In this document: positions 906-56,923 of the stretch, one piece after another
How the letters are laid out: every line of letters begins with the position of its first letter
Numbering within the stretch: position 1 is the first letter of the stretch
Assembly: GCA_030141605.1 (NCBI GenBank)
Contig: JAQGDQ010000053.1
Span: 741,981 to 805,980, forward strand
Direction: 5' to 3'
DNA from: Tubiluchus corallicola
Lineage: Eukaryota; Priapulida; Priapulimorpha; Priapulimorphida; Tubiluchidae
DNA length: 64,000 nt
Notes under the pieces: model-generated
The model's input: only the letters and a program-made list of their open reading frames with translations
Databases searched by the model: none
What the model was told of the DNA's origin: nothing
Made by a program: the position numbers and the translations under genes

Positions 906-3900
906 GTTAAAGGTTTGTTAGTGGATGGGCAAATTTACAATGAATGCCTTTATTATCTTAAAACATATGGAACTCATCTTTCCCTTCTGGCTTTTTACAT
1001 GCGCCATGGTTGTATTCTGATGGCTTTACAATATTTGGTTGAACAAGTATGTGCACTTTTTGTACATTTAATTATGCGTAATAGTTGCATCTTTACTAAA
1101 CTCTATTACAAATGTTAATTATATTGTGTAGTTATATAATAAGAATTTTAAGCAGTTTAGTATTTTCACAGTTTAGTACCTGAGGTAGTTTAAAACAAAA
1201 ATGACATTTAGGATCTTAGTTTTTGGAAATTTCGCTTTTCTAGAACTGCTCAACTGAAATATTTATTGATGGTGTCTTCATTCCGTGCCTTGAGAAAGGT
1301 GATATAGTCAAACTGCAAGAGCAATTACGTGCAGATGATCCTACATTAGAAAAGTGGAGTACTTACTTGACTGCTACTTGTAAATACTTGGATAAAATGC
1401 AGTTGATTCACACTCTATACGATTTTCAACTATTCATGAAGGTAGTTTTTGTAGTTCTGTATGTTAGCGCTATTGTGTAATGTTGCTGGTAGATGTGTTA
1501 ATCATTATCAGTGTTTGTTTTTGTGCATGTGTGACTGTATAAGATTGTTTTAAACTGTAGCTATAAGATATTTTGCTGTTGCATAATGTAAACATACTAA
1601 AGCTTTGAATACCTGGAAGTGATACAGAAAATATCTAAAAACTAAATATCTAATTTTATTTTTTGAGAAGATACTTTACTGTATCATCTTCAGGCATTCA
1701 AAATTTTAGTAGAACATCTACTACTACGTTTACTTTTTAGAGGATGTCAAGTACTTTTAAAAGATGCTATCGAGTATCAACTTTTTGCAGTATATTCAGT
1801 ATGTTCAAATTCAGTAAAATGATTTTGTGATTTCAATAAACTAAAAATTTAATTTTTAATTGCATGTACACCTAATCTGTTGTAAATTTACATGACATGT
1901 TCAGTAAACTTTGTGTGTGATTCAAAAAATTCAGTCAATTTTGACTGCACAAAATTTCTATTTGTGCCTTGTATAAAAAAGTTTGCACCAAATTGACTGC
2001 AGTAGGTTTTGTCATTTGACGAAACATCTCAGCAGTGCGCTACCAGTGTACATATGTAAAACATCTGGAAGCTGGATGCCCAACACCTTTTTTGTAGCAC
2101 CAGGAATGACAGGTTAAATTTAACAGCAAATGAAATTAGAAACGGCTGTAAATAGCAAAGTACCCAATCAAATATTTATAAATACGCAGCAATGCAGGCA
2201 ATGGTGCCCGATAAAGAATCTGCAATATGCAATAATCAAGTACGCTATACTCAAAGCTATTGTGCTAGTTAAATAAATGATGAAATCTCGTTCATTTTTG
2301 TGAGTTTGCATTACTGGTGTGCACCCAATAAACCATGTTCACTATAATGGTGTTATTAATGCGTCTTTATTATGATATTTACTTCCTTTTGTGTTTACTC
2401 AATGGGGCTTTGATGTCTCTTTGCATACAAAATTTGCTTAAGATACATGTAAACGTGGGGCAAAGAAATATAGCAAAAAGTAAATGTGTAATATTTTGCT
2501 GTAAAAATATATTTATATGTCTTGATGCAAACAATGAGAAATTCCCATATTGTCTTATTTTATAGGATTACGTTCGAGCCGCTATTACTTGTATTCGATT
2601 CTACAGAACTGGTGCTAATTCATATACAGAACTGTACAGTCGACTGCCTCATCTTGCCAATGCAACACAGCACCTTGAAACTTATTTTAGAATTCAGAAA
2701 GATTCAAATAGGAATACTGGATCTGGCATGTACTGTGTGTGGGGAGAAGAAAGTAGTGAAGTTCGATTGACATTACCCAAGGGTGAAGTTCATAAGTACG
2801 TTTTGACTTCCATTTGTAACAGATAGAAACAATTTTTTGGGTACAGCAATAGTTACTATTATCGTCTTTGTCTTGTTGCGTAAGTTGACGAAAAGCCTAC
2901 CCATTGATTATTGTTACTATTGAATCTAGCTAAACTACAATGAAAGCTTTTTATTCATTGTAAAATCTGAACTTATTTATGCGAGTTTATTTATTTGTAT
3001 ATTTATTTATTTATTTAGTTGTATAATTTCCGTAGACATACTACTTTGGATTTCCGTAGACATACTAGTTTTTAATTTCCATTTGTTGTTCATGATGAAA
3101 CTCTAAGGATACATTCTTTTTATATTGCGGCATATATAGAGAAATATAAAATTTACCTTATTTACAGTTATCTCATGACAATAAGTTTACAAACTGAAGT
3201 CACCAAATTTCTACAACGATGTGAAAACTTAAGACCATCTGTAGCACAGTATTGGGAAGCTCCTTTACCTACTTTGTTTGGAAATGGCAAAGTTAAGATG
3301 GATGTAGCAATAGCAGTGATGATGGCTGGTAACAGTATTGATGATGGATTTGGGATTGCTTTCAGAATTATACAGGTAATATGACTTTGGTTAGGTAATA
3401 GATAGTGAAAACTCAGAAACGTCTTATATATTGTAGCAGTAGATCACACAATAAACTTTAAGGTTACTGCTAGATCACACAATAAACTTTAAGGTTACTG
3501 CTAGATCACACAATAAACTTTAGGGTTACTGCTAGTTCCATTCGTTTTAACATTTTCATTAGCTACTTATCAGCCCCTGATTTTTAATTTCTCTGCAGGA
3601 AAGTTGAATTTCTCGGGAAACTTTGTTGCTTGACATTAATGCTTAACAATGTTTTTTTTTGTAATTGTTGCCATAATTCTAGTGGTTCATATGACTTATT
3701 ATGTAGCTTTACTTTTGACTTACTGGAATTTTGTCTCAGTGACTAACAAAAGACGTACCATTGTACTTACACACTTAAGTCATTCTATCAGTTCTGTTTT
3801 TGCTTTACACAGTAAGTCGTCTAAAATGTCTTCTAACATCCTTATTTTGTAGGAATTTCGATTGAATTCAACAATTATCTACACACAAGTAGTGAAACGG

Positions 3901-8473: not shown

Positions 8474-11272
8474 TCAATGTATTCCTTCCATTTTATTTAA
8501 CCATCGAGCAGCCAAGTTTTTGATGTACGAATTTTCCTGTTGCACAATATCTTGTTTTAGTTGCTCAAACTCAGATTGCAGTTGATCATCTGTTTTTCCT
8601 TCAACAGATAACTCCTTGACTTTGGTCAGAAATTCTTTGATTAACAGTTCCCCTTCTTTTTTCGCTATGTTTTCATCTTTCTCTACATCTGCATTAGTGT
8701 CACTACTACTAGGACTTTCATAATCTTCTAGTTCATCTGCCTTTCTTTTGGCAAACTGAATGACATGTTTTGGAAAATAAGCTAGCTCGGCGACGTGTAT
8801 ACCAAAACTTTGGTCACACACTCCAGGCTTAACTTTATAAAGCAAAGTAAATGTCTCATCTGATGTTAGTGCAGTTACATGCAAATTGTTAACACATGGA
8901 ACTTCTTCGGCTAATGCTGTGAGCTCATGAAAATGTGTTGCAAACATTGTAAAACATTGAATTTGTTTTGCAATATACTCTGATATACCCCAAGCCAAGC
9001 CAAAGCCATCATAGGTCGATGTTCCTCTGCCAAGCTCATCTATAATAATTAGCGAGTCTTTTGTAGCAGCTCTAAGTATCGATGCTGTTTCCACCATTTC
9101 TGACATAAACGTTGACACTCCTTTAAGTTGGCTATCTCCTGCACCTACACGTGCCATAATTGCATCTACAATAGAAATTTCAGCAGATGTGCATGGAACA
9201 TAACAACCAAGTTGTGCGAGTAAAACAACAGTGCCAACTGACCTGATGTAGGTAGACTTTCCACCCATGTTAGGACCAGTTATAATATGAAACATGTGCG
9301 TGTTTCTGTCAAAATCTATACTGTTTGGAATAAAAGCTACATCATCTTGCATTTCCACACATGGATGACGTGCGTCCTTTAGTGTTAAAATACCCGAGCC
9401 TTTTTCTAATATTGTTGGTCGAACATAAGCTGATGGTGCACTTACAGCTGCATGAGCAAAACTAACCAAAACATCCAACTGTGCTAGAATATCATTCATC
9501 TGCACCATAGGATCTGCATATCCAGCAGCTATTTCTACAATTTCTGAAACCAAGGCTTTCTGTTGTATTGTGTAATCATTTTTTGTTTGCATCCAGTCTT
9601 CATTCAGTTTACGCAGTAATGATGTGTTAAATCGAACTCCACTGTTCTTCGTGTCAATTATTGAGTAGTTTCTATTATTACGGAGGACTTTCTCATCTTT
9701 CCTTGTAACTCTGAATGAATAGCCCAGCTGGTGACTGCTCTCTAACTTGATGTTTTTGTGTGCCTCTAAACCCAAGTCTGTTGCTGCCTTCTTCAGCAAT
9801 ACTTTCATTTCATCTTCCAATTCGTCTAATTTGTCCCTCAAGGTTTGTAAATCTTCATCAAAATCTGGACGAATTAGATATTCATGATTTTCAATTTGCT
9901 TCAAATCTAAAGTCGTTTCGATCATGTCCTGAAATTTGGCGAAATCCGTTAATAACTCTTTCAAAGGGTTAGTGTAAATTTCCATCAGTAACTGCCTGTT
10001 TGATCCAGAGTGTTTCTGTAGCACCTCCAAAAGCAAAGGCGCCCGTGCAACAGCTGTGTAAATCTTGTAACAATCTTGTAAAGTTGCATGTTTTTTCCGA
10101 AATTTTTTTGTAAGTCGCTGAAAATCTGGTATTTTACGCAGATGGTCTTGTTCTAGCGACTGTCGCAGCTCAACATCTTCAATGAAGGCTGTAACTATGT
10201 TCAGTCGCTCTTCAATTTTATTTTTGTCTATCAGTGGCTGTTTGATCCATTCTGCTAAAAGTCGGCGACCTTGCGCTGTTTTGCAATAATCTAAAAGACC
10301 TAATATACTAGTAAACTTGTTACTCAATTCATCAGCAGTTGGAAGCAAATTAAGCGCTCTCAGTGCTGCAGCATCCAATCTCACGTATTGGCCAATATCA
10401 AATAAATGCAAACTATATGCACCAAAATTTTCTTCATTTTGCATAAGTTCCAAATATTTTATCAATGCTGCAATACCGCACATTGCCACTCGTTTTTCTT
10501 GCTCTAGCAAGATACTACTATTAGTCTGTTCGCCTTTCTTAAATTTTAGCAGTCTATTTAAATCCTGTGCATTGTCTTTATCATTAAAACAGCCCTTTTT
10601 TTGGCATGTTACCAAAACACCACTTCTCTCCAAAACTTGTTTAATAGACACATACTGTTGTGTGCTGTCGCTTGGAAGCAAACATTCTTTTGGATCAAGT
10701 TGAATAATTAGTGCTTCAAAGTTACAGTACTTTTCATTGTCCACAAATTCGCACACACCCATTCGTTTCAATGTTGCGTCAACATATCCAACACCAACTG
10801 TTGTTTGACCATTTATTACCAATATTTTTACTGCAGCTATGTTTGCAGAATCCGACATATCACTATTAGCAAACAGCACATCTTCAAACTGAGACAGGTT
10901 ACCCGGAGATGCTTTAAATTCCACTGACCAATCATTTTGTTTCCCCGAACCTTTATTTTTATACAGCTCTACTCTGTATTGCCGAATGAGCAATAACTCC
11001 CTCACAAGTTGCTCAAACTGAGATTTATTTACTACTAAAGATTCCACTTGTTGGCTTTCTCTGTTTTTTCCGAGATATTTAACTCGGACCATCGACTTGT
11101 ATATTTCTTTTGCAACAAACACTGCATCCTCTCCATGAACTGTGTAATAATCGCTCCTATCAAAAATTCGGATAGTGGTACTTGGCTTTTCCGGTAATTT
11201 TCTATAAAATGTAAGAAATCCATCTGTAACTGAAACATCCAAATCAACTGAAATTTTATTATCACCAGCCAT
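8474..11272 (-). CDS. MSH2: DNA mismatch repair protein MSH2, complete and intronless
   Basis: One reading frame of 932 codons, against 934 in human, runs from ATG at 11272 with no intron and no frameshift. MSH2 pairs with MSH6 (or MSH3) to form MutS-alpha or MutS-beta, which recognises base mismatches and small loops in nuclear DNA. Visible features are the N-terminal mismatch-binding and connector domains (roughly 1-300), the lever/clamp (about 300-620) and the ABC-type ATPase. In the ATPase the Walker [10 protein letters not shown] is at 666-674, and the Walker [21 protein letters not shown] has D745/E746. [10 protein letters not shown] motif and the C-terminal helix region follow. All catalytic motifs are intact, so the gene looks functional. 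The start is well placed: the N-terminus ([12 protein letters not shown]...FLTFYRKLP) aligns with the animal family from the first residues. The lack of introns is odd, because every other gene in the window is finely split and human MSH2 has 16 exons. Confidence 0.97.
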
Positions 11273-11286
11273 GCTGTTTATGGTAT

Positions 11287-11294
11287 TTTCGCGC
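11287..11294. promoter_or_regulatory. E2F-type site in the MSH2 promoter or 5' UTR
   Basis: TTTCGCGC, an exact match to the E2F consensus TTTSGCGC, lies 15 bp upstream of the MSH2 start codon. A CRE-like TGATGTCAT lies about 20 bp further on. GC-rich octamers are rare in this AT-rich window. Mammalian mismatch-repair genes are known E2F targets, so S-phase control is a reasonable inference. Confidence 0.5.
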
Positions 11295-11449
11295 GTTTTA
11301 GCTGCGCCGATGATGTCATTTATTTATTTTCACTTTACATTTATTGCACACACTCAACGTGATCATAAGTTGAGAAGATTTCTCTTGCAGTAACATGCAA
11401 CAACTGTTGATAGACCAAAGAAGCCATTAAACTGAACACAGTTTATGCA

Positions 11450-14060
11450 ATAGATACCTTTCCAAGCTTCACATAGAGTATCATTAAAAAGACTGATTTG
11501 CCCAATTTAGATCATCTCAGTGACCTCTCATTCCCTCATGTAGACTTTAACTGCGCCATGCATCCCATTGGACAGGATGTACCAGTTGCTGTGGTACCTC
11601 TTGAAGTGAGGATAGGTTCCTCGCCAATGGATCCTTATGCCATCAGAACTGCACTTGTATGAACTCTAAATGGGTGCATATGGGGTGGCAGCCAATCACT
11701 ATGTTACATAGCCAATTATGCTCACGTTGACATAAACGAAGATCACAGACTGTCAACACAGGTTGAAAATTTTGGAGATTGGAGAGATGCGTCAATGACA
11801 CTGATCTGGGAATGCAGATAACCACAATCAATTAGCCGTTCCCTTTACGGAGCACGATCTAAATTTGGAGGATAGTCGACCAATGGCTGAATCCAGATTA
11901 CCAAGTTTGAAGACCAGGCTTTTTAAGCATCCAGAACTGCACAAGAAGTATTCAGCAAACATCTCCAACCTGTTAGCTAGTGGATATGCTGAGGAAGTTG
12001 ATGAAGATTCAGGCATCATGGGGAAGATATGGTATATCCTTCATTTCCCAGTTTTTAATGTCAACAAGCCAGATAAAACTTCGACTGCAGGGCCAAGTTT
12101 AATGGAGCCTGACTTAACGACATTGTCTTGCAGGGTCCTGATTTGACTAGCAAGCTCATAGGAGTTCTTATATGCTTTTGTCTGGAGGATGTCGCTGCCA
12201 TGGAAGATACTGAAGCCATGTTTTACCAGGTCCGTGTCAGGCCCGAAGACAGAGATGCTCTGAGATTCTTATAGTGGAAAGACGGAAATCTGGAAGACAC
12301 TATAAAAGTTTATCGGATGACATTTCATCTCTTTGGAGATGTATGGTCTCCCAGTATCTCTTCCTTTACCTTTGGCCACACAGCCGCTGACAATGAAGAC
12401 AAGTACGACAAAGAAATAACCCAGTCTATTGAAGGGAACTTTTACGTCGATGATTTTTTAAAGTCAATTGATACTGGGATGCTGCTTCCAACGTAGTTCA
12501 GCAAATGACTTCACTGTTAGCTGAAAGTGGTTTCAACCTTACCAAATGGCTGAGCAACAAGAAAGTTCTGGAAAGCATACCAGCAGAGAAATGTGGAAAA
12601 TCGGTCAAAGCCTAGGATTTGCATTACGATAATTTACCTAGAGTGAAAGTCTTAGGAGTCGAGTGGCACATGCACAGAGACGTTTTTTGTGTTAAAATCA
12701 AGCTCAAGTAGAAACCCTACACTAGAACAGGAATGTTGAGCATTTTATTCTCAGTGAAAGATCCCCTTGGCTTCTTATCTCCCTTCGTTTTTTGAGGAAA
12801 ACTTCTCTTTCAGGAAGCCACTGTGCTTCTCAGGAAGTCTTGGGATGATAAATTGGACAGTGGTATCCAAGAAAGATGGCAGTGTTGGCTGGATGATTTG
12901 CCAATCTTGGAAAAACTAGATGTCCGAAGATGCATTAAGTCAGCTGATTTTGGAAAATACATAAACTTTCAGCTTCATCACATTTGTGATGCTTCACCTC
13001 AAAGTTACGAAACTCTTTGATACATCTGGGCAGAAAACTATAATAGTGATGTATGCTGCATGTTTCTAACAGTAAAATCTCGTCTCGCCCCTGCAAAGGG
13101 AATGACAGTCCCACAGCTCGAACTATCTGGTACAACTTTGGCTGCAAAAATGGATTATATGCTGCAGAGTGAACTGGATTTCGATATAGTTAGCTCGTTC
13201 TTCTGGAGGGATAGCCTAATTGTACTGCAGTACTTGACTAATGATACAAAGCGTTTGCATACCTTTGTGAACAATAGGGTGTCGTATATGCTGCAAAAAT
13301 CATCTCCTGAGCAATGGAGACATGTCACTTCAAATCAGAATCTTGCTGATGATGACAGTAGAGGTTTAGATGCAAATAGTCTGCTAGCATTCAGCAGATG
13401 GATCAATGGACCAAGTTTTCTTCTTTCTTCTGAAATGCGCGAGTAAGTGGCCCAGCTTAGATCTCTCAAAATAGGAAGATCTCCTTAAAAATGACAGCGA
13501 GGTAAAGAAATTTGTAGAAGTCATCTTGGTGCAATCTGGCCAAGACATGTTGAACCCAATAAACAAAATGGTGGGTCACTTCTCATCATCAATCAAATTC
13601 ACCAGGGCAGTCACTTGGATGCTGCGATTCAAACACATTTTATGGGCCAAGGTCACTAACAAGACTTTACTTCTTTCTCTGAACTTGTCAATGTCAGAGA
13701 TCAATGATGCACATAATGAAATTGTAAGGACTCTACAGAAGCTGCATTTTACTGATGAGTATGAAGCTTTGTCATAAGGACAACTGATAGCCAAATCCAG
13801 TTGCCTAGATGAGCTTGACTCGGTTTTGTCTGACTTTGGGCGTCATGAAGTAGTAGTCTCTCACAAGAGGAATACAAACAATGGGTATTAGTGCAGAACA
13901 ATTTATTGCATCAAAGTGTAACTGTTAAGTCAACTGAGAAGCTGTCGTGCTCAATGCCCACCAATATCTAGTGTGGAGGCCTCGTGGATCTCGCCTTCTT
14001 GAGGGGTACGGCCAAAGACTCAGAGAGATCAGCATAAAAATAGAAACAGAATGAATTGAT
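11450..14060 (+). pseudogene. Decayed BEL/Pao LTR retrotransposon pol (protease to integrase)
   Basis: Pieces of one Pao-type polyprotein appear in order but in changing frames. They are an aspartic-protease-like end (HLSDLSFPHVD, then MDPYAIRTALV near 11510-11660), the linker MAESRLPSLKTRLFKHPELH (about 11882), VFNVNKPDK, reverse-transcriptase blocks ([19 protein letters not shown] near 12440), KWLSNKK, the RNase-H-like part (13060-13446: SRLAPAKGMTVPQLELSG, FFWRDSLIVLQYL, HVTSNQNLADDDSRGL) and the integrase zinc-region start (13606-13860). Several stops, frameshifts and missing segments show the copy is dead. Similarity is to the BEL/Pao superfamily found in many invertebrates. It lies head to head with MSH2, starting about 180 bp upstream of its ATG, so it is close to the MSH2 promoter. 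Confidence 0.85.
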
Positions 14061-17618: not shown

Positions 17619-18140
17619 TCAGAAGTTATTATTGTTTTTGTTTTTTTCAAGAGAATTTATTCTATTTACTGTTGCACAGCGCAAAAGTGGACCTAAAACA
17701 GTTCCCTCCCTAACAGATTCCTTTATTTTAATTTCATTATTGATACCAACTGGTGTCTCAATAACAGCATATGCTACCTCATTCAAATTTAAAATTAATT
17801 CACAAATGTGTGCTGGTATCCCTAAACGCCACATTTCAACTACAGCATCTTTAAGCCAAAGTTTATCGAAGCATTTTTCTATATCAAAAAATGTCATGTA
17901 AATATCATTGTTTAAATATTTATAATAGTTTAACATTGCCCTAATAGTGAATAGGTGATCAGCAGTACTTCGATTAGATATTCCACCATATTGGTATCTT
18001 CCTAAATCCGTTTCCAATTTGTCAATAATTCTATTTTTAATAATTTTTTCAAACAATTTTCTCATTATATTTGTAATGAAAATACCTCTTCTATTTTCCA
18101 TCAGCTTTTTATCACCTTTGCCTTTGTAAACTGACTTAAT
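17619..18140 (-). pseudogene. LINE reverse-transcriptase finger/palm fragment, 3' truncated
   Basis: A 160-codon open frame, extended upstream by the in-frame YKGKGDKKLMENRRGIF, carries typical reverse-transcriptase motifs: NIMRKLFEKIIKNRI, a QYGGISNRSTADHLFTIRAM block, the first catalytic Asp in TFFDIEKCFDKLW, and EGTVLGPLL where active elements have QGSVLGPLLF. The frame then runs into non-homologous sequence ending in an Asn/Lys-rich tail. The YxDD box and everything after it are missing, so it cannot be active. It is a separate copy from the fragment at 16620-17045, because the two overlap in domain content. Confidence 0.8.
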
Positions 18141-21100: not shown

Positions 21101-22265
21101 CTGACAATCCAAGATACTTTCACTGATAGGCGTACCAAGTGAGTGACTCCTTATAGACGGTTACGGCTTTGCTGGACATTTACTGATCAGCGAATGTCTG
21201 TCTTTAATGGTAGCTGAATAAAGCAAGTAATATTTACAGAATCTCTGTCTTGCAGCTAAGGGTTTTAATGCATAATCAGTGAAATCACATGCAATAGACT
21301 GTGAGTATAGTACTCCAGGATGTTTTCGTATTGTGCCTGTACGAGCATTAACTTTTGCTCTTAAGTGGATGCAGAAATACATCAGAGTTGCTAAGACCAG
21401 CGTTTCCTCTTGATCTCACACCTTGAAACAAGTGATACTCTTAACTAGCATGTATTGCTTAAATTTAATACTTTCACTTGTAATCTGGCAGTATTGATGG
21501 AACTCTTGCTTAGCAAGTTTATCATTTAAATTCTTTATTTGTTACGCATTTCTGTTATTACGATGTTATCTTGTCCATGTAAAGCCTTAATAACTGCCTC
21601 GCATTTTGCCGAGAAGTACGAAGTACTGTCAGCCGTCCAATTCGTTATCGCTGTTTACATATTTTGGTTCACTAGTATACTGTATTGTAGTTTTGTGGAT
21701 GGAAAAACGTGTTTTGAATAGTGTATTTTTATTATTACATAAGCCATTTGTGTTTACATGAAAAATTCATCCTCACTGAGTGCTGATAATACAGTGTCTT
21801 TGTTATAAGTGAATTTTGTAAATGCAACCAAACTGCAGTTCAAGTAAACAACGTATAGTTCAAGGCTATGATGACTCTGCATTTTACTTCGGTTCACAGA
21901 CCTAGCACAAAGCTTTGTAGAAACACTTATTAATTTCTCTACATTGGCTAATCGTTTCGTACAATGGAAACTTACTGCAAGCATAATCGCGCTATATTTT
22001 TACTGCTTAATGCAATCATCAAAGTAGATCTCTGATTGTGAACCTGGAAATTACGATGAATAGACTAGATGATCTATAAATATATATATATAATATATGT
22101 GCATACGGTGCATATTAGGGACATTAGTGACAGCTGATTGATGGTTGCGCAAAGAACACTCAAGCAAGTTCTCATAAATAACTGGACACTTGGGTGTATT
22201 TGACTTTTTAACACTAGAAGGACCGGAAAAGTGTACATTGAAGGGCCGGCACGCGCCAGTTAATA
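18141..22265. other. 4-kb gene desert
   Basis: No gene is supported. A short minus-strand frame at about 19204-19315 follows a CTAAG acceptor-like site and reads an acidic peptide (QIESGEDNVNDAEEMAAGDN) before TAA. It could be an orphan terminal exon, but no partner exon was found. A 100-codon plus frame at 19423-19725 and an 88-codon minus frame at 20486-20752 have no recognisable domain. The latter's start (YEHMNANNLLS) faintly resembles a LINE. Confidence 0.4.
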
Positions 22266-24768
22266 TGGTGCGCGGTAAAAATCGCACAAGAAAAATGGCA
22301 CAAATGAAAAAGTAGGTAAAATTGCACGAGAAAAAATGCACTGGAAAAATGGCACAAATGGAAAAGTTGATAAAAATGGCACAAGAAAAAACGGCAAAAA
22401 TAGAAAAAAGGCACATATGTTATTTGTCCAGTTGATTTCTTTAACAAAACTAGAATGTGCTCAGTAGGAAGCAGATCTCTGCCAAAGTCGAACAATTCTA
22501 AATTTATTCGGCTGATTATGTTGATTAAAAAAAATTTACCACAAAGATAAGCAAGCAAACATACGAAAATGTACCTGTATTGGTATTATATAGACTATAT
22601 ACTAGCAAAATACTCACAAAATATTTGTTCATTAAATAGATTTATAATCAATAATGCACGAATGTTCTGCATAGTGTTTATCTAGCTCTTAACCATTACT
22701 TTTGACGATGGTAATAGACTGATAGGCAAAATTTATACGTTCCAAGTCACCTTATAAGGCTATACACATTAATAAACAGATGTTGTAGATGGCGTTACAC
22801 AGTTTATAAGCAAGAATTTCTTGAGATGGAACTGGAACTAACTCGTAGATGTTTGTCTAGGTGGAGATAACAAAAAAGAAGTGCTAAACGCTCCCTCTGA
22901 TACCTCCACGAAGTACTTCACCGTTGTTTTTTTACGTGGTGTTCGCTCATGTTTTGGGAAAAAAGAACCAGCCAAAAGATTCCCATTTTGGCTCCCTGTA
23001 CCCCCTTTCTTCACTAAGTTTCTTGAAAATCTGTTAGGTAATTCTTGTATAATAGGCTTACTGTTATAACAGATAAAAAACAACCAAACAAACAGACAAA
23101 CAAGCAAACTGTGTTGAAGTATAACTTCCTTGGCAGAGGTAAAAATAACTAACATAATTATCCTTTCCTGTAACCCTAATTCTAAACACATATTTTACTA
23201 AGTGTGCCATTTTTCCTATGCCATTTTTACCTGTGCTATTTTACCGTGCCTTTTTCCTGTGCCATTTTTACTTGTTTAACTCTGGTGTTAAAGTAACATT
23301 TCAGTCCTGAAATCCTGTGCAATAGCAACCAGAACGAAACTATGAAAAGTAATAAAAAATAGGAACATATCCTCCAGAGATATGCACGAAATAATAAAAA
23401 AATTGCGTCAATTGACGTGCTTTATCCTTCTGGTTTACGACACAGCTCCCGGATTAGCGGAAATTCTCAGTCTGTAAGTCCGGTGGAACAGTCAGGAAAA
23501 CTGTTTAAATGTTTTCACTTTACTGTTTGCATTTGAAATCGGGAAATATATAGGAATGGGGAATTAATGAGAATGGATAGATCCTAGGTTGGGTGACCGA
23601 GTGATCTATATTTTGGACTGCAACCACACGAGTCTAGCGACAGTCGACGCCAGGACATGCATATTGTACAATCTACAACTCGTTGTTGTAACCTGCATAT
23701 TCGTTGTTTGTGCGTTGTCCTAAATAAGTCGCTAAATAGCCGTTAGTGCTAAAGTTGTCTGTTTTTTGGTAATTTTTTGTTGTCGTTGTCTTTGTCTTTA
23801 ACAAAAATCGTCCAGCGGAATGACTTTGCAGTTTTGTAAAACACGTTTTCGCGCTGCTGTGTAATCAATATAGGCTTTTGGCGTGCCACAGCTTCGAATT
23901 GAATATTGGGGAAGTGTGAAGGATCGCTAGAGGTTAACCGGGTTAGGTTGGTCATTCTAAAACAGGGTTTAAATCGCCAAAACAAGTGTTTCAGGTGTGT
24001 AATATCATTATTTCGAATGTAGATAAAAACGGCACAGGAAAAATGACACAAATGAAAAAGTAAGTAAAAATGGCACACTTAATAAAATATGTGTTATAAA
24101 AATTTTGTTATGGTAGTAAGCCTGTTATGCAAAAGCTACTTGACAGACTTTCAAGAAACTTAGTGAAGAAAGGGGCCGGGGGGGGTACAGGGAGCCAAAA
24201 TGGGAATCTTTTCGCTGATTCTTTTTTTTCGCAAAATTTGAGCGAGCACCACGTAAAAACACTGGTGAAGCACTTCGTGGAGGTCTCAGAGGGAACGCTT
24301 AGCTACACATTTCAAGAAAATCTCGCGTGTAAAATGCTGTGTAATGCTGTCTCTAACCTTTGCTTATTAGTGCGTATAGCCCTATATGGTGACTTGGAAC
24401 GTATAAATTTTGCCTATCAGTCTATTACCATCGTCAAAACTAATGGTGAAAACGGTAGATAAACACTATGTGGAACACTTGTACATTATTGATTATAAAT
24501 GTGTTTAATGAACAAATATTTTTGAGTCTTGCTAGTCTATATAATACCAAACAGGTACGTTTTTGTATGTTTGTTAGTTTATCTTTGTATTAAATAATTT
24601 TTGATCAAAAGAATCAGACGAATAAGTTTAGGATTATTTGGCTTTGACAGACATTTGCTTACTACTGAGCACGTGCTAATTTTATCATAGAAATCAGTTA
24701 CATCAAAATGTCACGTGTGCCATTTTTACGGTGCTATTTTTTCCTGTGCCATTTTTACCGCGCACCAA
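22266..24768. mobile_element. Foldback-like structure: long inverted arms bounded by arrays of a 12-13-bp repeat
   Basis: The sequence from 22266 to about 23275 and that from 24768 back to about 24015 are near reverse complements over most of their length, around a spacer of about 740 bp. Both outer ends read TGGTGCGCGGTAAAAAT. Outer and inner ends of each arm carry short arrays based on AAAAATGGCACA (22276-22420, 23203-23275, 24015-24075, 24715-24760), with the inner arrays facing the outer ones. Matching interior landmarks include a segment ending in TTGGCTCCCTGTACCCCC near 22990 and its complement near 24195. Arm 1 has more repeat copies and an extra 120 bp or so near 23070-23190. It is either one foldback (Galileo/FB-type) element or two copies of a 0.75-1-kb non-autonomous element inserted in opposite orientation. 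No transposase frame was found. Frames on the minus strand here merely translate the repeats. Confidence 0.75.
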
Positions 24769-27310
24769 TTGTTTCTTTATATTTTCGTATAGTTTTGTCT
24801 AGTGCTAGGGGAGAACAAGGTCACTTTCAAATTACGCGGTGAAGCTACTATTAAAATTTCAATATCTTACCAATGTTACCAAAAGACAAGGGATTACGCA
24901 TGCAGCAGTATTGATCCGCAATTCTCAACTGATAAAGCTTGGCTAGCGGGCAAGCAAAACGTTGCGTAAATCTTGTGTTGGCTCTTCATAATACAGTGTT
25001 CTTGAACATCGATAGCTTCTCGATTAAATTCCAACATAATTTACTGCTTAAATTATTAACGAACAATACTAATAAAACTGTTTTATGATAAACCCTAGCA
25101 TCATCTCTATAACAACCCCTAGGACATTCGGACTGTGAAGTATAAAACCTGTGATCTGTAAGAAGCGATCGAGAAATGCAAGTCATGCAGCAACTGTAGT
25201 ACAGTGTACTAACCGCTTGTTGAACCCATTGGAAATTGAGTCGCAGCATATTTTGTATCGATGACTGTTTTATATATTTCCGGTGGCTGGAGCTTTAAAA
25301 GACTAAATGTGACCATAAGGTCTAATTAATTTATTTTGTAGTGTGTGCCCAGCACACGTTTTAAATGTACTTTTTTAGTGTCTGGGTCTAGCTAGTGAAT
25401 TCAGTTGGTTTTAAACACAGAATTTCACGAATGAGGTGACCGGCTTTATTGAACCCGAAATCTTGTATTTGCCAACATGTTCCTTGTGTTCACTCAAGTA
25501 CTGCTGGATTATTAGAATTAGTTGTTTACAACAAGTACGCGGGCAGTGGTGAACCTTGATTGCTTTAAAGGGTAATCTGGCTAGAAGATTACATAGACTG
25601 GATACGAACTTACATGTATATATTTTATAAAGTATATTTGCTTAGTTGTATTGTACGAGTGCAGTTTGGTACTCGGTATCTAATTCGAGCTGTGACAGCG
25701 TTGCCTACTTTCCAGACTTCCGGCAAATAAACCTACAGTTTCATTTGTACAAAAATGTCTTATACTAGTCGCATACGGCAAAAATTCTTTATGCAGCAAA
25801 GTGTTGACGCAAACGATCTTATACAAAATTTGCTCGCACACAGCAAATGTGTACGAAGCAACCTGTGTCATTGATAAACACGTAACAGTAAACATTTACC
25901 AGGTGACACGTGTCAGAATGAGAATGATTGATTGTTATTGTTTTGTATGATGCAAATTGTTGTACCCGACGTGCGTACTGGAGCAGGATATGAGTTACGT
26001 GAAAAAAATAGTCACTTTTCATAAAAATCTGTATGCGGCAATGTTCAAAAAACAGCGTTTATTGAGCTCACACATGAGCAAAATCTGACAATTGCGCACA
26101 ACTTTTGCCTCATGTGTCTCATGTGTGATAGGTATCAAATAGTTGTTCACAAGTTCAAAATACTCTAGATATTGTCAGAGGTCTCGGGTGCCTAATAGTG
26201 GCTTCGCTTACAACTGCTATGTTTCATTGTTTTTACTGTAATTTAGTGTTTTGTTAATCTGAAAATTCGATTTCCTTGTGAAGTGTATCAGCAAATAAAA
26301 GTAGTGAATACATTTAAATACTTTGATTATTTCAATAGAATAGTGAGAGTAGTACTCTTGCTTGAAAATTTGCGACAAATGCTTTTCCTACTTTCATGTA
26401 TTCTCCAATAAGACCACTTAATAAAAGTTAGCAACATTTTTTCCCACTTCATGATGCATTTTTAGTTTGCAACTACTTGTACATGTGTTTACCATTAATC
26501 ACTGGTAACATGAGCTACTTTGCTGTCACGCTTAACCTTCAGTGGCTTGTCTTTGTCAGCTTTTGGGGACATTTGCTGTGCCTTTGCAACGTGTGCATGA
26601 GTCAGCTATAAATGTTTGCAGCATTTGCTTGCAGAATGTACTTTGCTTCTGTTATAAACCTTGAGTAAGTTATAAACAAGTTCTTTATTATGCACTGCTC
26701 TCGCTTCATACAGTAGCTAGGTAGCATAACTTGTAAATCATCAGTAGCTTGTCTTAAATTTTGTTTTTGTTGAAGTGAAATTGAAAAAACGTGGTTTGTT
26801 AGTTAACATGGTTGTGTATATAATAGGTGCGATTTTGTTATGACATTGTAATTGTGTGGCTGAATTAAATTAATTTTTTTCAGGTGAGAATTGATTGCTG
26901 AGATGCCATTGTTGCTCCGCGAATTATAACATGCGAAATCACCAAAATGTTATTTTGTGCACTTGCTATGTTATGGCTCAGCGATATAAACTGCGAAAGT
27001 TTTATAATGTGCGTGCTCCATGCTTATGATAACATTGCTAAAATGTGATGTTAGAGAAATCTAGTTAAACCAGAACCTACTGCACGTGGAGTTTTTGAAA
27101 ACTTTTATTTCTCATTCTATTTCTGCTTTGGACCTTTCTTATCGATTATCACTCTCTGTGCATTCCTAAAAGTCGTCGTGTTCGCCAAGTAACGACTAAG
27201 AAAGCTAAAGCTGCTTCAATGGCATTGAGCCATCAGTGGCGGTCAAGTGAGTCATTTAAACAGCGTTTAAAACTTAGTAGCGTGATAACCAATTGCTCAA
27301 GTCTTCCACT
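24769..27310. other. Upstream region of KEAP1
   Basis: No coding exon is supported. The right end must contain the KEAP1 promoter and 5' untranslated region. A non-KEAP1 frame opens with ATG at 27219 and runs to 27578 across the KEAP1 start codon in another frame, so it would act as an overlapping upstream reading frame if transcribed. Confidence 0.4.
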
Positions 27311-30300
27311 ATGTCATCTGCTAATGCATCTTCATCATCTAAGTCAACATCAAGTCTACCTTCCTGCAATAACTCTGCTGCAAACCATGCTGTCACTTTC
27401 TCCAGCTCTTCCTATTCAGGTCCTTCCACTTCCACAGCAAATGGCACATCCTTCAGAGATTGCCATCGTAGCGAGACCACCTGTTATCGCCCAAGACCGC
27501 CATCTGCATCCCGTCCGCTCGATGGTTCTATGCACTTCAGCATCTCAGATTATCCAAAGGAAGCTCTGGATACAATGAACATATTCCGTAATATGAAGAA
27601 ATTCTGTGATGTTGTGATACATGCTGGTGAGGAGAGCTTCCATTGTCACAAAGTGGTGCTAGCTTCCTGCAGTCCATATTTCAAAGCAATGTTCTGCAGT
27701 GGCTTGAAAGAAACTGATAAACCAGAAGTTACAATACACGGAATTAATCCAGATATAATGTGTATACTCATCAACTTTGCCTACACAGCCGAACTCTCAG
27801 TGAGTGAAATGAATGTATGTAATCTTCTTCCTGCGGCTTGCATGTTCCAGATGACACATGCTGTTGAAGCCTGCTGCACATTCCTTGAACATCAATTGGA
27901 TCCCTCGAACAGTATTGGAATTGCTGAGTTTGCTGAACAGCATGGCTGCCATGAACTTGCTAAAAAAGCAAAAGATTATATAGATCTGTATTTTTCAGAG
28001 GTAATTTTTTTCTTTTGTTGTCAATAAGTGTAATTTTTATGTCGAGCTTTGCTTTAGATATGCATCTATAACTAAGAATAAATAACAATTATTTGTAAGT
28101 GGCACAACATGAGACGTATGCTCAAACGAACATTTGATCTAGTTATTTTCATATATACTATGCAAAATTTTTTCATTCACTATTTAGATCATATAAAGCA
28201 TAACTGTTGATTAGTGTACATGTCTTCGTAATGCCGCATACACATTGTTGCGTTTACCATAGATGTTTAGAATTGTGATTTGTGTGATAGATACAAACAA
28301 CAATAATGTATATGCAATTCTGGATGCCTGGTAAATACCACTTAAATGAAAAAGCGAAATTTGACATGTGGAAGAGTATGTGCATTACCAGGTCAGCATA
28401 TTGGAGTAACTTACATGCCAAAAATGTTTAATGTTTTTACTTTGTTTCTTTTTTAGGTGGTGAAACATGACGAATTCATGAATCTGCATCCTTGCAAACT
28501 TGTTACTTTATTGAAACGAGATGAACTGAATGTAAAGTGTGAAAGTGAAGTGTACAATGCTGTCAAGGCGTGGGTGCGGTATGACGAGAAACTTCGTCTC
28601 AATAAACTAGAAAACTTACTCTGTGTGGTTCGATGTCACTTCCTTACACCAAAGTTTCTTCGTGATCAGTTGGATTTCTGTCGCATACTGAAAAACAATC
28701 CTCAATGCAAGGAGTATCTTTGTAGAATTTTAACTGATTTGGAGCTGCACAAACCATGTCCGGACCAGCAACGTTATCCACAAGGTGCGATGGTTATATA
28801 TGTTGTGGGTGGTTACTTGCGTCAGTCACTCAGCAACATGGAATGTTTCCACCCCGAACTTCAACAATGGTTTACACTTGCTGATTTGCCGGTGCCCCGC
28901 AGTGGGCTGGGGGTGGGTATAGTGGAAGGAATGCTATATGCGGTGGGAGGAAGAAATAATTCTCCTGATGGTAATATGGACACAGCAGCTGTTGAACGAT
29001 TTGACTATCTTCATAATGAATGGGAACACTGTGCACCATTAACAGTACCAAGAAATCGAGTTGGCGTTTGCGTTCTGGACAATATGCTTTATGCCGTGGG
29101 TGGGTCTCATGGTTCTGCTCATCATGCTTCTGTTGAAAGGTATATGGTGTGCTATGTAATTGGTAATTTAACTGGCATGTGCACTAGTTTTAATCAGAGG
29201 TGTGTCTAAGACTAAGGTGAAGAAGACTAAGATTATGTGCGGTTAAAACCATGAACTTTTACCAAGATTAATTTTAAGAGTAGATATGACAGTGACACTA
29301 TGACAATACCAGACCTTCAAGCTTCAAGATACATATTCTAAGACTATAATTGGAAACTACTTTCTCTGAGAAGGTACCTTTAAACATCAACATTTTAACA
29401 GCCAGCATATATTTTATATATATAGATACTCAATTTTGTGTTGTATGGTTAGTCATTCATTCATTCATTCATTGGTGAAATATAGATCTAGAAAGGTGCC
29501 TCCACTATTCTGATTTGAATATCTGTTACTGCGGCACATGTGCTTTTTTACTTTTTCGCACAAAATTAAAGATATAGAATTTAACAGAATCATCGAGAAA
29601 AGTTGAACAGAATTTTCAAGAAGTTAGAAACACAATGAAAGTGTTTTGGCAGCAGTGGATTTTTTAGTAGTGTTCAATTTTTAAGTGCCGTGAGTGTGAA
29701 ATTGGTGCAATATTTTTATGTGCAGGAACTCTCTCGCTAAAAATTAGTATTATACTTAGGTATATAACTTTTTGTCGAACTGTCTTAGTTGAAATAGCAT
29801 TTTTATTTGCTTTCTGCAGAAAGCATTACAATTGCTATGTTAAAAGGTAATTAACCAAAGAGTGATTAGCTATTTGGAAAAATCTGTAAAGCCTTTCAGA
29901 GAGTAAATATGTCACTTAAATGTTCTATAGGCAGATGATTACAAAAAACTGATAATTATTCTATTGGTAAGAATAATCTAAAATGGACTAAACAGTTATG
30001 TAAATTATTGTTGAATACTGTAAGTGGTTGTTTGTGTGAAAGGTGGGACAATTTGGTTGTGATTTGTTCAGTGTTGATGTAAACCTGCAATAACTGAATT
30101 ATGTTGGTGAGGAAATGAGATGAATAAACAAGGTGAACTGTGTTCCGTAGTAATGCTTTAATTTGCCTTTCGTACAGTGTGGCAGTGTTGTAGTCAAATA
30201 TTTTTGTAGCTGTTCACTTCTGTGTTTTATGTGGAACAACATTAATTGTGTTTAGATATAACCCAGCAGATGATAAATGGATGCTAGTGAAACCAATGAA

Positions 30301-34520: not shown

Positions 34521-56923
<22,403 letters not shown>

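Follow-up and report, generated by a model that had tools for sequence, protein, structure and literature searches.

The window analysed here, a stretch of 64,000 nucleotides from the priapulid Tubiluchus corallicola, carries an MSH2-like mismatch-repair gene at 8477-11323 (minus strand), with all five MutS domains in a single 949-codon frame that is unusually intron-poor for an animal, and a BTB-BACK-Kelch gene of two or more exons at 27281-29206 (plus strand), within a few kb of the pair of transposon copies described below. Fragments of a Pao-type retrotransposon and reverse transcriptase (Pfam RVT_1) lie at 13021-13443 (plus strand) and 17622-18140 (minus strand). The window also holds a three-copy tandem repeat of 31 bp at 3440-3535 (98% matches) and a two-copy tandem repeat of 128 bp at 44967-45218 (92% matches).

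Two inverted arms, recovered by a repeat search and by BLAST, face each other across 739 bp, in agreement with a sequence-only reading of this DNA that had described a spacer of about 740 bp. That reading placed the whole structure at 22266-24768; its start stands, whereas arm2 stops one base earlier, at 24767. The two arms are 75% identical over 718 alignment columns when gaps are counted (BLAST). Their outermost ends match exactly over 17 bp, as had been claimed (TGGTGCGCGGTAAAAAT at 22266-22282 and, reversed, at 24751-24767), and the opposing arrays reported for all four arm ends were likewise located: 14 of the 18 near-matches to AAAAATGGCAC in the window fall within these 2.5 kb, all of them directed inward from the four arm ends. 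The repeat length of 12-13 bp had to be corrected, as the 12-letter motif AAAAATGGCACA recurs mainly with a period of 14-15 bp or its multiples (27, 41, 56) among 804 motifs in the collected loci. Arm2 folds on itself as DNA (z -3.4), and positions 22000-25000 gave no family match in Rfam. The features are as follows:

22266..~23275, minus strand: arm1, one unit copy, B end at 22266 and A side at ~23275; 84% identical to arm2 at aligned core columns and 88% to the consensus core
22266..22275, minus strand: outer B end of arm1, TGGTGCGCGG, a match to end B (311 genomic copies at up to 2 mismatches)
22277..22414, plus strand: B-side array of arm1, inward AAAAATGGCAC motifs at 22277, 22291, 22345, 22372 and 22404
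23204..23270, minus strand: A-side array of arm1, motifs at 23204, 23218 and 23259
23276..24006, no strand: spacer between two insertions, outside the mobile unit; no second whole genomic copy
24007..24014, plus strand: left target duplication of arm2, ATTATTTC, 7/8 match to 24768-24775
24015..24767, plus strand: arm2, one unit copy of 753 bp, starting GAATGTAGA and finishing CCGCGCACCA; 79% identical to the consensus core
24015..24023, plus strand: A end of arm2, GAATGTAGA, a match to end A (651 genomic copies at up to 2 mismatches)
24025..24076, plus strand: A-side array of arm2, motifs at 24025, 24039 and 24066
24717..24756, minus strand: B-side array of arm2, motifs at 24717, 24731 and 24746
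24758..24767, plus strand: B end of arm2, CCGCGCACCA, an exact match to end B
24768..24775, plus strand: right target duplication of arm2, ATTGTTTC, 7/8 match to 24007-24014

The A terminus of arm1 is degenerate, with ACTTGTTTAAC standing where ACCTACATTC is expected.

A high-copy family of array-ended units

With arm1 as query, the 343.5-Mb assembly returned 1182 first-look candidates and 157 scored matches. The flanks of these copies led to two distinct ends that were found reproducibly, GAATGTAGGTAAAAATGGCAC (end A) and GTGCCATTTTTACCGCGCACC (end B). When up to 2 mismatches are allowed, the genome contains 651 copies of A and 311 of B; the reversed patterns, used as controls, gave 0 and 11. 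The canonical unit is laid out as GAATGTAGG-[AAAAATGGCACAGG]n-core-[inverse]n-CCGCGCACC, that is, two opposed arrays of a 14-15-bp repeat (AAAAATGGCACAGG/T) stand inward of the ends and surround a non-coding core of about 750 bp. Complete A-to-B units span 0.5 to 1.6 kb among the sampled copies, the number of repeats in the arrays varies from copy to copy, and solo units are the dominant genomic form. Similar open frames are seen in the two arms, but the 965-bp consensus of 27 sequences shows no such long ORF: none of its frames exceeds 80 aa, and the longest found no family match in Pfam. Each arm belongs to a high-copy non-autonomous DNA transposon without coding capacity.

The family is aged, since the median identity of the cores to the consensus is 84.5%. 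In three of the 40 A/B units having a core, the core is flipped relative to the ends (L041 445-1224, L066 936-1507 and L106 202-1023), which is what exchange between opposing arrays would be expected to give. One unit (L040 335-971) has B ends on both sides; a count of A/A units was set aside, as repeats inside the arrays can pass for end A. Two further copies depart from the canonical form: L021 (G000:C642:23930-26535) has more than 1 kb of the repeat at a contig end, a satellite-like expansion, and in L036 (343-1188) a 40-bp tandem array replaces the core, with only the ends and arrays kept.

Target duplications were assessed in 32 A-to-B units by comparing the eight bases before A with windows after B, re-paired flanks serving as the null. 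Eighteen units matched at six or more of the eight bases (1.75 expected, and never above 6 in 2000 shuffles) and 12 at seven or more (0.19 expected), leaving 14 without a clear duplication. Perfect 9-bp duplications were found in four copies, ATTGATACA (L047), GACATAAAC (L036), TTCTAAAAT (L033) and AATCATAAC (L028), in all of which B ends in GCACC; some other copies fit 8 bp. In addition, the flanks of ten units were joined without the element and with one target copy, and the resulting sequences were searched for as empty sites. The L036 junction matched uninterrupted at about fifteen paralogous places, and the two that were read (C1779:314160 and C1349:559465) are gapless across the junction and carry a single 9-bp target, GATAAAAAC and GGTGTAAAC, where the filled site carries GACATAAAC twice. 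For the L036 copy, these empty sites show directly where the unit begins and ends and that 9 bp of target were duplicated. We conclude that the unit duplicates 8-9 bp of its target, typically 9.

Superfamily and the search for a transposase

Target duplications of MULEs range from 8 to 11 bp (PMC6446971), and the 8-9 bp of this family fall within that range. Together with an architecture that matches Tm1 of root-knot nematodes, a Mutator/Foldback family of the Phantom subclass (PMC3169594), the 9-bp duplication indicates that the family most likely belongs to the Mutator-like superfamily.

Searches of the family's own genome for MULE, Merlin, hAT, P-type and FLYWCH families did not find a transposase-bearing member. 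None of the family's arrays lies within 1.5 kb of the seven strongest MULE-domain loci; the FLYWCH search gave no match, and neither did its positive control. A check of the ORFs in seven core-less array-ended units (L067, L069, L072, L078, L091, L093 and L105) found no recognisable protein. Collecting genomic copies by their end, a check proposed with the sequence-only reading, thus recovered solo arms and target duplications but not the transposase-bearing partner.

The units could instead belong to hAT, P-type or Merlin, as non-autonomous forms whose ends are rich in repeats, a possibility that we consider unlikely. All three superfamilies are present in the genome (115 hAT-dimer, 26 P-type and 7 Merlin matches), some of the P-type frames exceed 800 codons, and the copies that fit an 8-bp duplication would suit them, hAT and P elements duplicating 8 bp and Merlin elements 8-9 bp. 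However, the empty sites and the four perfect cases show 9 bp, and the family's ends lack the CAG/TAG start of hAT and the CATG start of P-type elements. Furthermore, among the ends listed, about one-third of the B ends and one-sixth of the A ends, no hAT, P-type or Merlin match falls between the two ends of one unit, and none of the 26 P-type loci is near such an end. A single transposase was encountered within a unit, that of a Merlin-like (IS1595-domain) element in copy L065 (3090-4640; G000:C158, about 137090-138640); this element has ends of its own, like CTCTATTAGAATYCAGG, and was rejected as the family's transposase because it is a nested insertion.

As a separate observation, the P-type transposase genes, found at 26 places with frames of up to 881 codons, possibly represent a recently active P-like family. 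Several contigs, including C1597, C1700, C31, C1719, C1720 and others (L057) of G000, look bacterial and carry near-identical IS256-type transposase genes, one of them beside a RecJ-like gene (L057); these contigs look like a symbiont or contaminant. One IS256-type match, at C1820:941087, lies 0.94 Mb or more inside its contig.

It is also conceivable, though we regard it as improbable, that the family represents an animal DNA-transposon lineage whose transposase lies outside present Pfam models, with the unequal termini and the 14-15-bp arrays as its recognition signal and with new copies tending to land nearby in opposed orientation, giving rise to foldback-like pairs such as that in the window.

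Two insertions or one foldback element

Considering all the above results, we find it very probable that the two arms were inserted separately and that both are copies of a high-copy, non-autonomous, cut-and-paste DNA transposon, mobilised by a transposase in trans that is most likely Mutator-like. Four observations speak for separate insertions: solo arms with their own duplications are the normal form, arm2 is flanked by a duplication, the outer flanks of the pair are not, and the spacer does not recur with the arms among the candidates scored. The flanks of arm2 are alike at 7/8 bases, a level that 1.5% of random flank pairs reach with free register. No convincing target duplication was found at the flanks of arm1, and none at the outer flanks of the pair, where the best agreement (5/8) is reached by 42% of random pairs. 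Among the best 40 spacer candidates scored, a single genomic place matches the entire spacer, the other matches being pieces of dispersed repeats, and the arm-spacer-arm arrangement was likewise found once. Of the two readings offered beforehand, that of two oppositely inserted copies of a non-autonomous family is thus borne out, whereas that of a single foldback unit with two arms is not; single arms with their own target duplications, named at the time as the finding that would speak against a foldback unit, are what the genomic copies display.

The kinship of the two arms deserves separate consideration. In a tree of 56 cores, arm1 and arm2 are sister rows (support 100/99), and they share 84% identity at aligned columns, where the median over all core pairs is 80%. 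Their kinship looks real but old, as only seven rare changes are common to both. Since independent insertions would predict otherwise, the sister relation was unexpected, and it suggests that one copy arose from the other by local transposition, or that gene conversion took place between inverted copies lying close together.

Among 100 listed B ends, three other opposed unit pairs lie within 10 kb (L031, L032 and L041), where simple arithmetic from the listed ends under uniform placement gives about 0.3. Such close opposed pairs are a hint of clustering and would allow for some connection among neighbouring copies. The long B-to-B spans at L031 (8.3 kb) and L032 (4.5 kb) were considered as large elements and rejected, each consisting of two separate units; neither span contains a recognisable transposase frame.

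That the pair is one composite foldback element, with long inverted arms and a spacer moved as a whole in the manner of Galileo or FB, would account for the 17-bp likeness of its outer ends and for the strongly supported sister relation, as expected of gene-converted arms of one element, and the three other opposed pairs might be taken in the same sense. We nevertheless hold it to be very improbable: the target duplication belongs to arm2 and not to the outer flanks, the spacer was not met elsewhere with arms among the best 40 candidates scored, the single arm is the normal form, with its own duplications and empty site, and the two opposed pairs that were compared, out of three, are not unusually similar (60th percentile for L032/L032r, 39th for L031r/L031b). 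About as improbable is an inverted segmental duplication of one insertion in place of two transposition events, which would yield sister arms but fails to explain them here because homology stops at the transposon ends, with neither flank nor spacer duplicated, and arm2 is bounded by a target duplication of its own.

Returning to two separate insertions, we propose that the transposase acts in trans, is most likely Mutator-like and would recognise the unequal terminal motifs together with the arrays, the latter being putative multiple binding sites by analogy with the THAP-domain sites of Galileo (PMC3688188). Slippage or unequal exchange may lengthen and shorten the arrays, and an occasional exchange between the two opposed arrays of a unit would invert the core. 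The pair in the window would then consist of two opposed sister copies, probably arising through local transposition or later gene conversion.

Comparison with known systems

The En/Spm and Ac/Ds elements of plants carry short subterminal motifs that are repeated in both orientations and bound by the transposase. They resemble the present family in these motifs but differ in superfamily, in their simple, conserved terminal inverted repeats and in duplicating 3 or 8 bp of target. The FB element of Drosophila, which duplicates 9 bp of target, shares this duplication and the internally repetitive inverted ends; however, here the arrays are much shorter, the single-copy core is conserved, the termini are unequal and no NOF-like gene was found. 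In Galileo, which duplicates 7 bp, long inverted repeats enclose a transposase gene, in contrast to the unit of about 1 kb described here, and membership of the family in Galileo fails on the length of the duplication (8-9 bp against 7 bp). The Galileo/FB resemblance first seen in the pair does not hold at that level, but it reappears one level down, each arm having inverted ends built of arrays. Galileo, a member of the P superfamily, also has repeats in its inverted ends, and the binding sites of the THAP domain of its transposase have been identified in these tandem repeats (PMC3688188, PMC3573991), making it the best model for the role of the arrays here. Tetris, a foldback element of D. 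virilis (PMC4079207), is likewise non-autonomous and modular, with repeats that can expand in a satellite-like manner (compare L021 and L036), but its repeats are 220 bp long and unrelated by description.

The closest match is Tm1 (PMC3169594). In Tm1 as in the present family, short and unequal terminal motifs (7 bp in Tm1) stand outside the inverted part, the ends are built from repeats of ~14 bp whose number varies, 9 bp of target are duplicated, non-coding members measure about 1 kb, the copies are aged, and an occasional unit carries one motif at both ends. On the other hand, the repeat is CGATTCAGTATCGC in Tm1 and AAAAATGGCACAGG here, the terminal letters differ too, Tm1 has tens of copies where we count hundreds or more, and here no transposase-bearing member was found and no purine-rich motif D was recognised. 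Judged from its sequence, the family appears to work like Tm1 but is not classed as Tm1, since the architecture agrees and the letters do not.

Altogether, an apparent 2.5-kb foldback element is re-read as two ordinary insertions, each foldback-like within itself. The design of Tm1, a nematode family with copies in the tens, recurs here with other letters and in hundreds of copies. So many copies, with arrays that vary and cores that are now and then flipped, offer material on how transposase-site-like arrays grow, shrink and recombine. The family is a further case of a known kind, a non-autonomous, array-ended DNA transposon, two copies of which lie in the window.
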